Positions 16,823 to 24,150 of a DNA stretch of 64,000 bases are shown piece after piece; position 1 is the first letter of the stretch; each line of letters starts with the position of its first letter. Both the position numbers and the translations under genes were made by a program. The notes below the pieces were generated by a model, which worked only from the letters and a program-made list of their open reading frames with translations, did no database searches and had not been told where the DNA came from. The DNA is from an uncultured Spirochaetaceae bacterium (GTDB lineage Bacteria; Spirochaetota; Spirochaetia; Sphaerochaetales; Sphaerochaetaceae), in the NCBI GenBank assembly GCA_944389015.1, contig CALXKS010000074.1, positions 1-64,000 on the forward strand, in the 5' to 3' direction.

Positions 16823-19276
16823 TCAGTTGCCGCTTACACCATTGATTACAACAGTTGTTTCCGCACCTTCTGTAGTGCCATCTGCATATGTAATTGTAAA
16901 TGTATAAGCTGTTCCTGATGTGATTATGAACTCTGCCTCATCGCTGATTGTTGTAGTTCCATATGTCACAGATGCTACTTTCGGGGCAGCAGGTGCACCA
17001 TGACCTTCAAAAGAACCATCAGCAAGCGTGAAGTTTGACAGCTTATATCTCGTCTCACTTGCTACAATCTGATTGTTCTTAATCTCAGCACTGTTAAGAA
17101 GAAGCTTAACATCTTTTGGTTCAGACCAATCCGTACCAGCAAATGCTGTTACATTAACTTCCTTTGTAAGCTGCTTTCCTGTCTTATCAAGATAGGAAAC
17201 AACTACTTTAAGAGTATTACCAGTTGCCTTGACTTCCTGCTGCTGTGATGACTTCTTCACATCGATAATCTCAGGATCCTCAGCGCCTGTCTTTGTGGTA
17301 TAACCAGCGATAGCATAATCATCCTCATTGCCACTGATTGGATCATCAATAAGAGCAATGTATGTATCAGCCTTAGCTGCTGTGATGCTTGATACATCGA
17401 CATATGGTACACCAGCAGGGACTGTTATGATATCAGACTCGACATCACCGATTACAACAGAGACCTTTGTCTCAGCTGCTGCGACTTCTGCCGGAAGCTT
17501 CTGGCTATCACCGTTGCCATCAACCCATGCAGTGTATGTTTCAGCATTCTCGCTTACTGTTCCAATCTCATTGTATGTTCTGACTGTCCAAGTGATTCCA
17601 GAATCAAGCATTGGTCTATCAGTGCCTTCAAGCTTGTAAGTGTATGTTGGTACAAGCTCGATACCTGTGATAGCAGGAGCCGACTGAAGAGTGATTGTTG
17701 CAATGCACTCTGTCAGAGGATCCTCTTCGCCGTAATCATAGAGGACAAATACATACAGATAACTTGTGTCAGAAAGATTCTTTCCATCTTTAAGCTCGGT
17801 GAAGGAACCCTGAGCCGTTGAGTAAGCAATCTCAACCTCAGCTGCTGTAAGAGGAACAACCTCATCATCTATCTTAACAGAGATATCACTGAGAAGAGCT
17901 GTTGTAAGAGCTTCTCTTACATCAGTATCATAGTGCTGCTTGTAAAGGACTGGTGTCTCAGTAAGCTTTGCTGTAAGATCTATTACCTTAGCAACATGTG
18001 CTGGCTGAGCAGTTCCAATGACATAGAGATCAGCAGAAGGCTGTCCGAGATACTCGGCATATACAGCTACATACGGACCAGCTGCAGGAACCTTTCCATC
18101 AGTAATCGCTGTAAGAGCAGAAACCTCTGTCGGCATATCAGGGCCATAAGCGAATCCGAACTTGAATGCAAGACCTTCATCAGATGCTGTGAGTCTGTCG
18201 AAAACTTCCTTCTCACCGTTGTAATACTTTGTCTCAACGATGATATCATCCGTTGTGTATTCAGGAAGGGCGGTACCAGCAATAAGCTTCTCTGCAGCAA
18301 AATTCTTTGCAGGCTTGATGTTAACAGTTACATTAGAAAGCGCAACTGCTGTACTGGTTACAGCTTCAAAATCCTCATAAACAGCCTTAACCTTGACGGC
18401 AGCACCAGTAGCAAGCATATTGCCATCGAGCAGAGGAAGTCCATTTCCATCAACCCACTCTACAGATGCAGGAACGACTTTATAAGTCTTAGCATCATCT
18501 TCGACAGTAGCTTCTACCTTTACCTTGCTCATATCGATTGCAGGAAGGTCTTCTGCATCACCATAATTGAGCTTTGGAAGTCTTCCATTATATGTCACTG
18601 TGATACCAGTAACTACTGCACCCTCTGGGAGTTCCTCGGATTCAGCTTCGCCGGTAAGAGTTACATCGAATGATGTCGTAGGAGCCTTCTCCTCATCAGT
18701 GTAACCAACAAGAGCATTGACTATTACTGTTGATACAGCACTGCCATTCTCAGCTATCTCTGCAGAAACATCTTCAACAACGAGCTCATACTCATTTGAT
18801 GAAAGAACCATTGTCTTCTCTGCGTTCTTGCTGTCGAAATAATGAGCAGTAACAACAACATCAGATGCAGGAATACCTGCAGCGTTAGCATAAGTCGTGC
18901 CTTTGACTTCTGCAGTGATGTAGTTGATTCTGTATGCGACAAGAGTACCCTCTGCATAGACGTTCTCATTATCTACATTAAGTCCTGCAATAGCCCAAAG
19001 CTTCTCACCATTCTGAGCTTTGTGATCACCATCATCCTCATAAACAGTAAGAGTATTAAGAACTTCGCTCTTGCCATTATCATAGATGACCATTACGGAA
19101 AACTTGCTTGCATCGAATGCCTGACCTTCAAGTATATCTGCAGCGCCTTCCCTTGGGATGACCTGTGCATCATTTACCTTCTGCGGCATATCGGGCCATG
19201 CTACCTGATCGGAGCAACCAGCAAGGATTGCAATTACGATCAGAGCAGCAGTCAATAAGATTGATTTCTTTTTCAT
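16823..19276 (-). CDS. Large surface lipoprotein with bacterial Ig-like repeats, cassette 1
   Basis: An 817-residue lipoprotein: signal peptide MKKKSILLTAALIVIAILAGC with lipobox LAGC (C21), then acidic, beta-rich repeats. Blocks of the form FDASKFSVMVIYDNGKSEVL and VVTAHYFDSKNAEKTMVLSSNEYEL recur, each reading like the Big_3/Big_2-type Ig modules found in spirochaete and Gram-positive surface proteins. No C-terminal anchor is present; attachment would be through the lipidated cysteine. It is a paralogue of the 820-residue protein at 21579-24041, alignable along its length but strongly diverged apart from the first seven codons. The promoter has a G-tract in its spacer. Adhesin or antigen is the likely role; no enzymatic motif seen. 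Confidence 0.8.
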   Translation of the reverse strand: MKKKSILLTAALIVIAILAGCSDQVAWPDMPQKVNDAQVIPREGAADILEGQAFDASKFSVMVIYDNGKSEVLNTLTVYEDDGDHKAQNGEKLWAIAGLNVDNENVYAEGTLVAYRINYITAEVKGTTYANAAGIPASDVVVTAHYFDSKNAEKTMVLSSNEYELVVEDVSAEIAENGSAVSTVIVNALVGYTDEEKAPTTSFDVTLTGEAESEELPEGAVVTGITVTYNGRLPKLNYGDAEDLPAIDMSKVKVEATVEDDAKTYKVVPASVEWVDGNGLPLLDGNMLATGAAVKVKAVYEDFEAVTSTAVALSNVTVNIKPAKNFAAEKLIAGTALPEYTTDDIIVETKYYNGEKEVFDRLTASDEGLAFKFGFAYGPDMPTEVSALTAITDGKVPAAGPYVAVYAEYLGQPSADLYVIGTAQPAHVAKVIDLTAKLTETPVLYKQHYDTDVREALTTALLSDISVKIDDEVVPLTAAEVEIAYSTAQGSFTELKDGKNLSDTSYLYVFVLYDYGEEDPLTECIATITLQSAPAITGIELVPTYTYKLEGTDRPMLDSGITWTVRTYNEIGTVSENAETYTAWVDGNGDSQKLPAEVAAAETKVSVVIGDVESDIITVPAGVPYVDVSSITAAKADTYIALIDDPISGNEDDYAIAGYTTKTGAEDPEIIDVKKSSQQQEVKATGNTLKVVVSYLDKTGKQLTKEVNVTAFAGTDWSEPKDVKLLLNSAEIKNNQIVASETRYKLSNFTLADGSFEGHGAPAAPKVASVTYGTTTISDEAEFIITSGTAYTFTITYADGTTEGAETTVVINGVSGN

Positions 19277-19385
19277 TCTCTCAATCCTCTCCTCTACTAA
19301 ATATCTGGATTTACTCTACCCTCCCCCGGTATCGAGTTGTCAAGGGAAAGAAAGCCATTATTTCAATGAATAGGGGGGTGAAATT
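19260..19385. repeat. Near-identical 5' module of lipoprotein cassette 1 (promoter, leader, first codons)
   Basis: 126 bp that recur at 24025-24150 with the same length and only a handful of substitutions. The block covers the first seven codons, the ribosome binding site, the leader, the promoter and about 45 bp upstream, and then ends sharply. Confidence 0.9.
19313..19343 (-). promoter_or_regulatory. Promoter of lipoprotein 1 with interrupted G-tract spacer
   Basis: TTGACA (19338-19343) and TAGAGT (19313-19318) are separated by 19 bases ending in G5-A-G3. A 17-base spacer is normal, so this promoter is long by two. The A inside the G-run should make it far less prone to slippage than cassette 2. 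Confidence 0.75.
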
Positions 19386-21578: not shown

Positions 21579-24041
21579 TTACTCGGTATAAACACCCAAA
21601 GTGATATCCAGTACCTTCTCTGTCTTTGTTAAGTTCGCAGTATTGTAATAAGTGAATGTGAATGTGTAATTTGAATTCATATCACCAGTGACAGTCCCTG
21701 CATCCTCATTAACAAAAGTACCAGAGCACCATACAGCAGGATCTGCGATTACTACATCACCCTTTCCGGTAAAGGAATCTGGAGAAATAGAGAATTTCGC
21801 AATTTCGTATACTGTTCCCTGTTCGAACTTCTTGAACTCTTTTCCATCATAGAGAAGAACAGGTTCCTGCTCCAGTGTTGTGACATATGGTGTACCAACA
21901 ATTGTTACATTCACAGGTGCTGTTGCATCGGTCTTGCCTTCTGCGTCAGTGTATGTGATGACAACAGGAATTACATTTTCACCAGTCTCTAGAGTCTTGC
22001 TCGCATTGACCTTTACAGCAGTAACCTTTACAAGACTGTCTTTTACTGTTTCATAATCGACACCCTGCGTAACATCATAAGACTCTGTGTCAATAGTAAA
22101 GTTCGAAGTAATGAGAGCAGTATCAATCTTTGTACCAACAGCATAAAGCTTCTCGGCATCGTTTGGCTTAAGGACAAACTCAGGTGCCGGTGAAACAAAA
22201 CTCCTTCCTGCATCGATTATTACATTCGTAAATACAGCCGGATTATCTGTCACATAAAGAGTGTATGTCAGATTTTCTTTTCCAACTGTTTCAGGAATTT
22301 CTGCATATGCACCATCACTATCCAGAACAGTGTAATCGGTGAAATCCTTATCGATAGCATTTCCAGCTGCATCCTTTGCAACAACATTCACATGGACATA
22401 ATTTCCAATCATCGGATTTGTTATGTCTGCACCAGAAGCTGTTGTATATGTGTCTTCCGGAGTAAGAATTGCTATAACAGGATCTGTATCAAGCTCAATT
22501 GTTTCAAAATATGAGAGTTCCTCACCCATATATGTTGCATCAACCTTGATAAGAATATCAGCTGCATTAAGGAGAGCATCATAATCACCATCGTCCGTCG
22601 GTTCAGCTGTTGAAAGAGCTGTATCCTCATCAAGATAGTAATATGCTGCGATTGCATCTGACTTTGGAAGTACAACAGTTGATCCATCACTCATAGATAC
22701 TGTTATCGATACAAGCTGTGTCTGATCGAATACTGGCAGAGCATTATAATACTGTGTTGCAGGAACAGCACTTGTATAATACGCATCAGCAAGCTTGATT
22801 CCCGTGATTGCAACAGGTTCTGCCTCTTCTGGTCCAACAAGCTCCTCTGCAGTGAATGCATATGTAGCACTATAAATACCGTTGTAGTTTACACGTACTC
22901 CAAGTGGATCTGTTCCTTCAGGAACGGTTGTTCCCTTGTACTCCTGGCTCTTGGACATATACATGAATGCAGAAGCATCAAGAGTAAGCTCCTCAGGATC
23001 GTTGCCATCAACAACCATTGTGACAATGTAGTCAGCTGGGTTGATTGCAGGAATTGCTTCGCCTCTTACGAGCTTGGCATCGGATTCATATGTAACTGAA
23101 ATCTCAACATCTGAATATCCTGTTACATTTCCGAATACGACAACGCCATCATACTCTGCTCTGATTGCAAGATCATCCTGATTTGCTGTCTGAGTAAGAT
23201 CAAGAGATCTGATCGGGCGGTGAGTTGTTGCATCAACGAAGCTGAACTCAATACCAGGATCCTCTGTAAGAGTGACTGGGTCTGTCTCGTCTTCTACTTT
23301 AGCAGAAACATTCACATCCTCAAATGCGATCTCAGGAAGCTCTGCATAGTTGAAAGGCATGAAGTTTCCGTTCCAGGATACAGCTGTGATCTCCTCAACG
23401 ACAACAGGAGTAACGGGCTTGTCTGTTACTGTAACCTGAATCGGTGCAAGGAAATCCTTACTGCCACCAACAGCGGTCTCAACCTTGAGTGTTGCGCCTA
23501 CAGCCTCTGCTGCTTCTTCTGGTTTTCCTGCATCATAAGCATTGAATGTCACAGTATACTCATTTGAGCTGAGTGGCATTGTCTTGGCAACACCGTTTGC
23601 ATAATAGGATGCTGTAACCACATAGTCCGTATTCTGACCGATCTTCGGATTTTCTCCTACAGTTGCACTATAGGATTCCGGACCACCTGTTACCTCGATC
23701 TTATCAATGTCATAAACGGAGACAGAAAGCTCACGGTAGATATCATTGCCCTTAATATCTGTTGCTGTGTAAGTTACGTAGGAATTCTCTGTAACTTTAC
23801 CTTCACTTGCTGAATCAAGGGATACTGAGCCTACAGTCTTTGAGCTGCTGCCATCAAGATAGGTTACCTCAACCTCGAATTTATTTGAATCGAAGTTCTG
23901 ACCTGTGAGGAAATCACCTATCTGAGTGATCTTCGCATCTGTTACGGTCTTCGGGTATACTACTGAATCCGAGCAGCCGACGAATGTCATTGCTGCAAGG
24001 ATAGCAACCACGAGAGACACAAGAATTGATTTCTTTTTCAT
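21579..24041 (-). CDS. Large surface lipoprotein with bacterial Ig-like repeats, cassette 2
   Basis: An 820-residue lipoprotein: signal peptide ending FVGC (lipobox, C23), then acidic Ig-like beta modules. FDSNKFEVEVTYLDGSSSKTVG and YVVTASYYANGVAKTMPLSSNEYTV match the positions of equivalent blocks in the 817-residue paralogue, so the two share domain order. The rest has drifted far in sequence. There is no C-terminal anchor and no catalytic motif. The 5' module including the first codons, and the 3' module, are almost identical to cassette 1, while this body is not. Its promoter carries an uninterrupted G9 run and is a candidate for on/off switching. Confidence 0.8.
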   Translation of the reverse strand: MKKKSILVSLVVAILAAMTFVGCSDSVVYPKTVTDAKITQIGDFLTGQNFDSNKFEVEVTYLDGSSSKTVGSVSLDSASEGKVTENSYVTYTATDIKGNDIYRELSVSVYDIDKIEVTGGPESYSATVGENPKIGQNTDYVVTASYYANGVAKTMPLSSNEYTVTFNAYDAGKPEEAAEAVGATLKVETAVGGSKDFLAPIQVTVTDKPVTPVVVEEITAVSWNGNFMPFNYAELPEIAFEDVNVSAKVEDETDPVTLTEDPGIEFSFVDATTHRPIRSLDLTQTANQDDLAIRAEYDGVVVFGNVTGYSDVEISVTYESDAKLVRGEAIPAINPADYIVTMVVDGNDPEELTLDASAFMYMSKSQEYKGTTVPEGTDPLGVRVNYNGIYSATYAFTAEELVGPEEAEPVAITGIKLADAYYTSAVPATQYYNALPVFDQTQLVSITVSMSDGSTVVLPKSDAIAAYYYLDEDTALSTAEPTDDGDYDALLNAADILIKVDATYMGEELSYFETIELDTDPVIAILTPEDTYTTASGADITNPMIGNYVHVNVVAKDAAGNAIDKDFTDYTVLDSDGAYAEIPETVGKENLTYTLYVTDNPAVFTNVIIDAGRSFVSPAPEFVLKPNDAEKLYAVGTKIDTALITSNFTIDTESYDVTQGVDYETVKDSLVKVTAVKVNASKTLETGENVIPVVITYTDAEGKTDATAPVNVTIVGTPYVTTLEQEPVLLYDGKEFKKFEQGTVYEIAKFSISPDSFTGKGDVVIADPAVWCSGTFVNEDAGTVTGDMNSNYTFTFTYYNTANLTKTEKVLDITLGVYTE

Positions 24042-24150
24042 TCTCTCAATCCTCTCCTCTACTAAATATCTGGATTTCCTCTACCCCCCCCCGGTATCGA
24101 GTTGTCAAGGGAAAGAAAGCCATTATTTCAACGAATAGGGGGGTGAAATT
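24025..24150. repeat. Near-identical 5' module of lipoprotein cassette 2
   Basis: Second copy of the 126-bp block at 19260-19385. One of the few differences turns the interrupted G5AG3 run into G9, and another changes the -10 box from TAGAGT to TAGAGG. Confidence 0.9.
24078..24108 (-). promoter_or_regulatory. Promoter of lipoprotein 2 with G9 tract between -35 and -10
   Basis: TTGACA (24103-24108), a 19-base spacer whose last nine bases are all G (C9 on the plus strand, 24084-24092), and TAGAGG (24078-24083). Loss of two G would give the optimal 17-base spacing. Homopolymer runs in this exact position control phase-variable promoters such as Neisseria porA. Confidence 0.75.

Follow-up and report, generated by a model that had tools for sequence, protein, structure and literature searches.

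Poly-G tracts of differing length in the promoter spacers of predicted surface lipoprotein genes across a genus of uncultured gut spirochaetes

The gene for an 820-residue predicted surface lipoprotein of an uncultured spirochaete is preceded by a promoter whose spacer ends in nine consecutive guanines (G9), and the same design recurs before lipoprotein genes of several families across the genus, with tracts that differ in length between near-identical copies. We consider it very probable that this represents slipped-strand variation of expression of the porA/TP0126 type, in which a sigma70-type promoter carries a mutable poly-G spacer. The stretch analysed, referred to here as the window, is the first 64 kb of contig C74 of a 2.03-Mb metagenome-assembled genome, which we infer to belong to the genus of Candidatus Ornithospirochaeta; matches to the promoter motif include this taxon.

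The block from TTGACA to TAGAGG lies 37-67 bp upstream of the 820-residue gene, and its G9 tract is the only run of G or C longer than six in the window (Table 1). Re-reading of the sequence confirmed the coordinates and base counts given for this promoter and for a paralogous one in the first-pass annotation, and the description there of a promoter with a G tract inside its spacer is supported both by the sequence and by the family comparison below. Transcription would be expected to start near 24071, at the A of a frequent AGA.

Table 1. Features of the two lipoprotein promoters and genes in the window.
Feature	Position	Strand	Basis
-35 hexamer TTGACA	24103..24108	-	sequence; perfect in 38/41 family promoters
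Spacer, 19 bp, ACTCGATACC + G9	24102-24084	-	sequence
G9 tract, last 9 spacer bases	24084..24092	-	sequence
-10 hexamer TAGAGG	24078..24083	-	TAnnnT directly after run in 95/100 and 124/137 promoters
Shine-Dalgarno GGAGAGG	24051..24057	-	sequence
ATG of 820-aa lipoprotein	24041	-	sequence
820-aa predicted surface lipoprotein, lipobox FVGC, Cys23, predicted beta-sandwich Ig-like chain	21579..24041	-	sequence and AlphaFold2 model
Upstream C-rich box CACCCCCC, possible regulator site	24138..24145	-	box enrichment in family promoters
Promoter cassette (126 bp), copy 1, through codon 6	24025..24150	-	alignment to copy 2
Promoter cassette, copy 2	19260..19385	-	alignment to copy 1
Paralogous promoter, whole (TTGACA, 19-bp spacer, TAGAGT)	19313..19343	-	sequence
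Paralogous -35 TTGACA	19343-19338	-	sequence
Paralogous interrupted tract G5AG3, ends 19-bp spacer	19327-19319	-	sequence
Paralogous -10 TAGAGT	19318-19313	-	sequence
C-rich box of paralogue	19380-19373	-	sequence
817-aa paralogous lipoprotein, ATG 19276	16823..19276	-	ORF, lipobox Cys

The gene product is predicted to be a lipoprotein at the cell surface. The open reading frames of 820 and 817 residues both carry a lipobox cysteine, and Cys23 of the former is invariant across 13 relatives in the alignment. When the 820-residue protein was compared with Pfam no family exceeded the cut-off, and NCBIfam gave no match, so that neither collection provides a sequence match to a Big/Ig family model. 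An AlphaFold2 model, built from an alignment of 13 relatives, shows several domains made up of beta structure throughout (mean pLDDT 79.6, pTM 0.40). Its structural matches are weak (Z below 6) and comprise the Sap S-layer protein, a LigA segment (8gyr, Z 5.6), Rib domains and animal Ig proteins; values of Z below 8 indicate a common arrangement only. The term 'Ig-like', as first applied to this protein, therefore seems a fair description of the predicted chain rather than a family assignment.

The two cassette copies are identical at 123 of 126 bp (24025-24150 against 19385-19260) and their identity stops at codon 6, whereas direct comparison of the 820- and 817-residue proteins yields one match, of 31% over 114 residues. 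Since the proteins are far less alike than the DNA preceding them, promoter and signal-peptide start behave as a cassette common to the genes: cassettes including the first codons are shared by paralogues while the mature proteins diverge. Such cassettes have presumably been copied by recombination. Two other loci are of note here. An IS66-like transposase gene, judged by eye, lies just upstream of a third family promoter with G8 (L003, G000:C64, 3-1088). At L040 (G000:C4:12622-13142) the promoter resembles a chimera, L039-like upstream and L035-like downstream, with its junction at the G tract, and the -10 element has lost its T (GAGTCT), reflecting either recombination at the tract or mis-assembly.

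The design extends well beyond the window. A protein search gave nine matches in the same genome (the query counted; the 817-residue neighbour not among them) and found relatives in 12 of 47 sister genomes. Upstream DNA was readable for 41 family genes of the own and sister genomes, and 38 of these have a perfect TTGACA before the G run; one of the three exceptions (L068) has TTGACC 17 bp before TAAAAT. Counted independently of protein homology, the pattern TTGACA-N10-G7 occurs at 201 sites in 33 of the 48 genomes of the genus, and the reversed pattern, used as a control, at 0 sites in the same 48 genomes. The architecture is thus far above chance. On the family and genus-wide counts the reading as an isolated odd promoter was rejected; a single odd promoter is the wrong description, as related lipoprotein genes carry the same design. 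In a sample of 100 genus sites, a TAnnnT -10 element follows the run immediately in 95, and in 89 the gene that follows encodes a lipoprotein signal peptide, a count in which some reading frames cut at contig ends were unscorable and entered as negatives. These genes belong to several different lipoprotein families and, together with the invariant Cys23, point to targets for which surface export is predicted.

Outside the genus the pattern thins out. Only 6 of 91 genomes from other genera of the family have a TTGACA-N10-G7 site, a stricter motif is sparse across the class although present in several families, and a motif scan of viral contigs gave no match. The same promoter design was seen outside the spirochaetes, in Clostridia/Firmicutes MAGs, where TTGACA-N10-G8/9-TATACT precedes neighbouring copies of one exported protein family beginning MKKKLVAFAVTAAM (L124, L128, L167 and L211). 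Other Lachnospiraceae motif matches precede membrane or exported proteins.

For the comparison of tract lengths, 137 promoters of 21 genomes were merged into one set; in 124 of them TAnnnT directly follows the run. Tracts range from 6 to 14 bases with a mode of 9, a sample biased against short tracts because the search pattern demanded seven G's at a fixed place; the lengths are metagenome-assembly consensus values, where a homopolymer may be miscounted or its length may represent a majority vote. Close pairs were defined as those whose 51 flanking bases differ at no more than 3 positions, with both tracts at least 8 long, about the length from which a tract is able to slip. Of 36 such pairs 24 differ in tract length, with a mean of 0.7 flank differences, as do all five cross-species close pairs (for instance L037 G10 and L065 G8, or L038 G11 and L064 G9). 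Because pairs inside one cluster are not independent, the count of clusters of close promoters is the safer figure, and 11 of 13 vary in tract length. Unequal tracts with identical flanks were found in L038 (G11) and L064 (G9), in L289 (G8) and L291 (G11), and in L326 (G9), L330 (G10) and L063 (G8). Differences reach 3-4 bases (G8/G11, G8/G12) at 0-2 flank differences. One short-tract promoter (G7) is unchanged in three species. Unusually long tracts, G11-G14, were observed in 7 of 9 sampled promoters of one species (G022, L332-L340).

Judged from these alignments, the tract appears to behave as a hypermutable site. The first-pass annotation had predicted slippage of the spacer; the expected length differences among near-identical promoters were indeed observed, in a comparison made between paralogues and species rather than strains. 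Loss of mismatch repair was considered as a source of the variation and rejected, since all 48 genomes of the genus contain a MutS1 match, which exceeds the cut-off in 46 of them. With MutS present, tracts may slip more slowly than they do in species lacking repair.

The relationship between tract length and total spacing gives some indication of how length could matter. Spacing in the long-tract promoters of the merged set runs from 17 to 24 bp, with 19 bp in the majority (70 of 130), and all seven short-tract promoters (G6-7) have 17 or 18 bp. Either a longer non-G portion, of 11-12 bases, makes up for the missing G's or, as in the G7 group, a short tract is combined with a C before the -10. 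In most short-tract promoters the -10 also comes closer to consensus (TATTGT, TAAATT, TATATA, TAAGAA), L066 having TACTCT. That every short-tract member keeps 17-18 bp suggests that this is the strong spacing, and on our reading these promoters are probably held close to the optimum, and the long-tract promoters are those open to adjustment. Tract-free promoters with TTGACA, sampled over about 395 kb from the genus, show a slight excess at 17 bp, based on few sites. Weak activity at 19 bp is expected of sigma70 promoters generally and from the behaviour of TP0126 (PMC7864442) and, by analogy, would be expected here. Nevertheless, equating 19 bp with 'off' would be tentative, since no other state is as common in the genus as G9 with a 19-bp spacer, and that spacing is locked in the interrupted paralogue. 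Its G5AG3 tract is fixed at 19 bp by the A, which argues that 19 bp is probably still transcribed and not wholly silent, making graded expression as likely as an on/off switch. Moreover G9 is modal at total spacings of 17, 18 and 19 alike, which may reflect a mutational equilibrium rather than an OFF state.

It is possible, though unlikely, that the G tract, perhaps with the C-rich box, is mainly a regulator binding site whose length alters regulator binding and not the spacing seen by RNA polymerase. C-rich boxes occur upstream of the -35 in 13 of 39 family promoters (about 1 expected), including 7 of 9 short-tract ones; besides the two window copies they are found at L042, L045, L054, L056, L066, L067 and L073. 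In most cases the distance from the end of the box to TTGACA is 17-18 or 28-29 nt, two positions separated by about one helical turn, and the tract is commonly preceded by (T/A)AC(C/T/G). There are also precedents, as the effect of length at opc in Neisseria has been proposed to act via regulator binding and the tpr promoters of T. pallidum partly likewise, with CRP (PMC7864442). However, only 2 of 100 other lipoprotein promoters of the genus have the box. Furthermore the tract occupies the very interval that separates a perfect -35 from a -10, so that any change in its length must change the spacing, and the common 17-18 bp total of the short-tract promoters is a signature of spacing.

The genome-wide distribution of G runs bears on whether the tracts are simply neutral. 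By a first-order model from the composition of one 64-kb window, which makes the expected counts approximate, the genome that carries the window contains 20 separate tracts of at least G7 against about 141 expected; exactly G7 is seen 5 times against about 108, yet tracts of 10 or longer are seen 8 times against 1.7. Long runs are therefore avoided generally, although the longest class is in excess. Such a pattern would be expected were long tracts kept chiefly where they serve a purpose, and half of this genome's long tracts sit in these promoters. A G11-TAGCC was also noted upstream of an unrelated 662-residue lipoprotein gene, without TTGACA at the usual distance (L222, G000:C30:40428-40438), and an in-frame G9 lies between the start codon and signal sequence of a putative lipoprotein of more than 800 residues (L226, G000:C67, near 73985-73993), a candidate translational on/off switch. 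We regard it as very unlikely that these are ordinary promoters with a neutral homopolymer inherited by duplication, in which 19 bp is adequate and length drifts to no useful effect. Although G9 is commonest across lineages and the interrupted copy keeps 19 bp, the tract keeps its place in different lipoprotein families of 33 species, and the genome is markedly poor in tracts of 7; in addition, a change of 1-2 bp is non-neutral in porA (PMC3639595) and TP0126 is also dependent on spacing (PMC7864442). Errors of assembly or sequencing in the metagenome bins are an extremely unlikely source of the length differences since, even though every length comes from a MAG consensus and several contigs end near these promoters (e.g. 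L283, L286, L290), differences of several bases occur between near-identical flanks and the architecture is independent of exact tract lengths.

Probable slipped-strand variation of the spacer places these promoters among contingency-type promoters of a known kind, an assignment that is well supported. In Neisseria meningitidis porA, which likewise has a poly-G spacer between -35 and -10, expression is graded by tract length, with 11G, 10G and 9G giving high, medium and low levels (PMC3639595), although porA is one porin gene in an unrelated organism encoding an unrelated protein. A closer parallel is TP0126 of Treponema pallidum, an OmpW homologue. This spirochaete surface-protein promoter also has poly-G between -35 and -10 and is most active at 17 bp (PMC7864442); it serves one outer-membrane barrel gene of a pathogen, whereas here many lipoproteins of uncultured gut spirochaetes have cassettes common to paralogues. 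Poly-G tracts also occur at the promoters of T. pallidum tprE/G/J and tprL, a paralogue family with variable poly-G near the transcription start; tprE/G/J are permissive at 8 or fewer G, and the tprL tract (7-11, mostly 9) differs in overlapping the -10 region, leaving the -35/-10 spacing unchanged (PMC7864442). Leptospira LigA and LigB are likewise spirochaete Ig-like surface proteins, from which the 820-residue protein differs in having no sequence-family match.

The earlier statement that no such case was known for a spirochaete Ig-like lipoprotein needs narrowing: TP0126, tprE/G/J and tprL are precedents, albeit in outer-membrane proteins rather than Ig-like lipoproteins (PMC7864442). A literature search for phase variation in Sphaerochaeta or Brachyspira found none, most subscription journals being beyond its reach, and none of the Ornithospirochaeta papers found concerns the subject by title or abstract. 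With the principle of the poly-G spacer already known, what appears to be new here is scale, namely shared slippery promoter cassettes before a lipoprotein set that spans the genus.

In the mechanism that we propose, slipped-strand mispairing would add or remove G's in the spacer tract, and the number of G's would set the -35/-10 distance (G7 giving 17 bp, G8 18, G9 19, and onward) and hence the rate of transcription of the lipoprotein gene, probably strongest at 17-18 bp and weaker at 19 or more. Slippage within populations and its effect on transcription would be part of this, so that the expression of each gene is probably raised or lowered randomly by errors in copying. As each gene in a large genus-wide set of surface lipoproteins would have its own slippery promoter, a population would be a mosaic of cells expressing different subsets or amounts, perhaps serving antigenic or adhesive diversification. 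With less assurance, we lean towards a genus-wide switchboard of up to about a dozen independent poly-G promoters per species, spanning several lipoprotein families, in which the cassette of promoter and signal peptide is copied by recombination. Copying between genes would spread and homogenise the promoter while the exposed proteins diverge.

Because the cassette is shared, the pattern can be searched for by a simple DNA motif. Overall, dozens of surface-lipoprotein genes in uncultured gut spirochaetes have promoters with mutable poly-G tracts, which suggests that gut spirochaetes not known as pathogens commit much of their lipoprotein repertoire to random switching by promoter length, a strategy best documented in pathogens. 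If the switchboard is true, gut commensal spirochaetes would diversify their surface combinatorially, as pathogens do.
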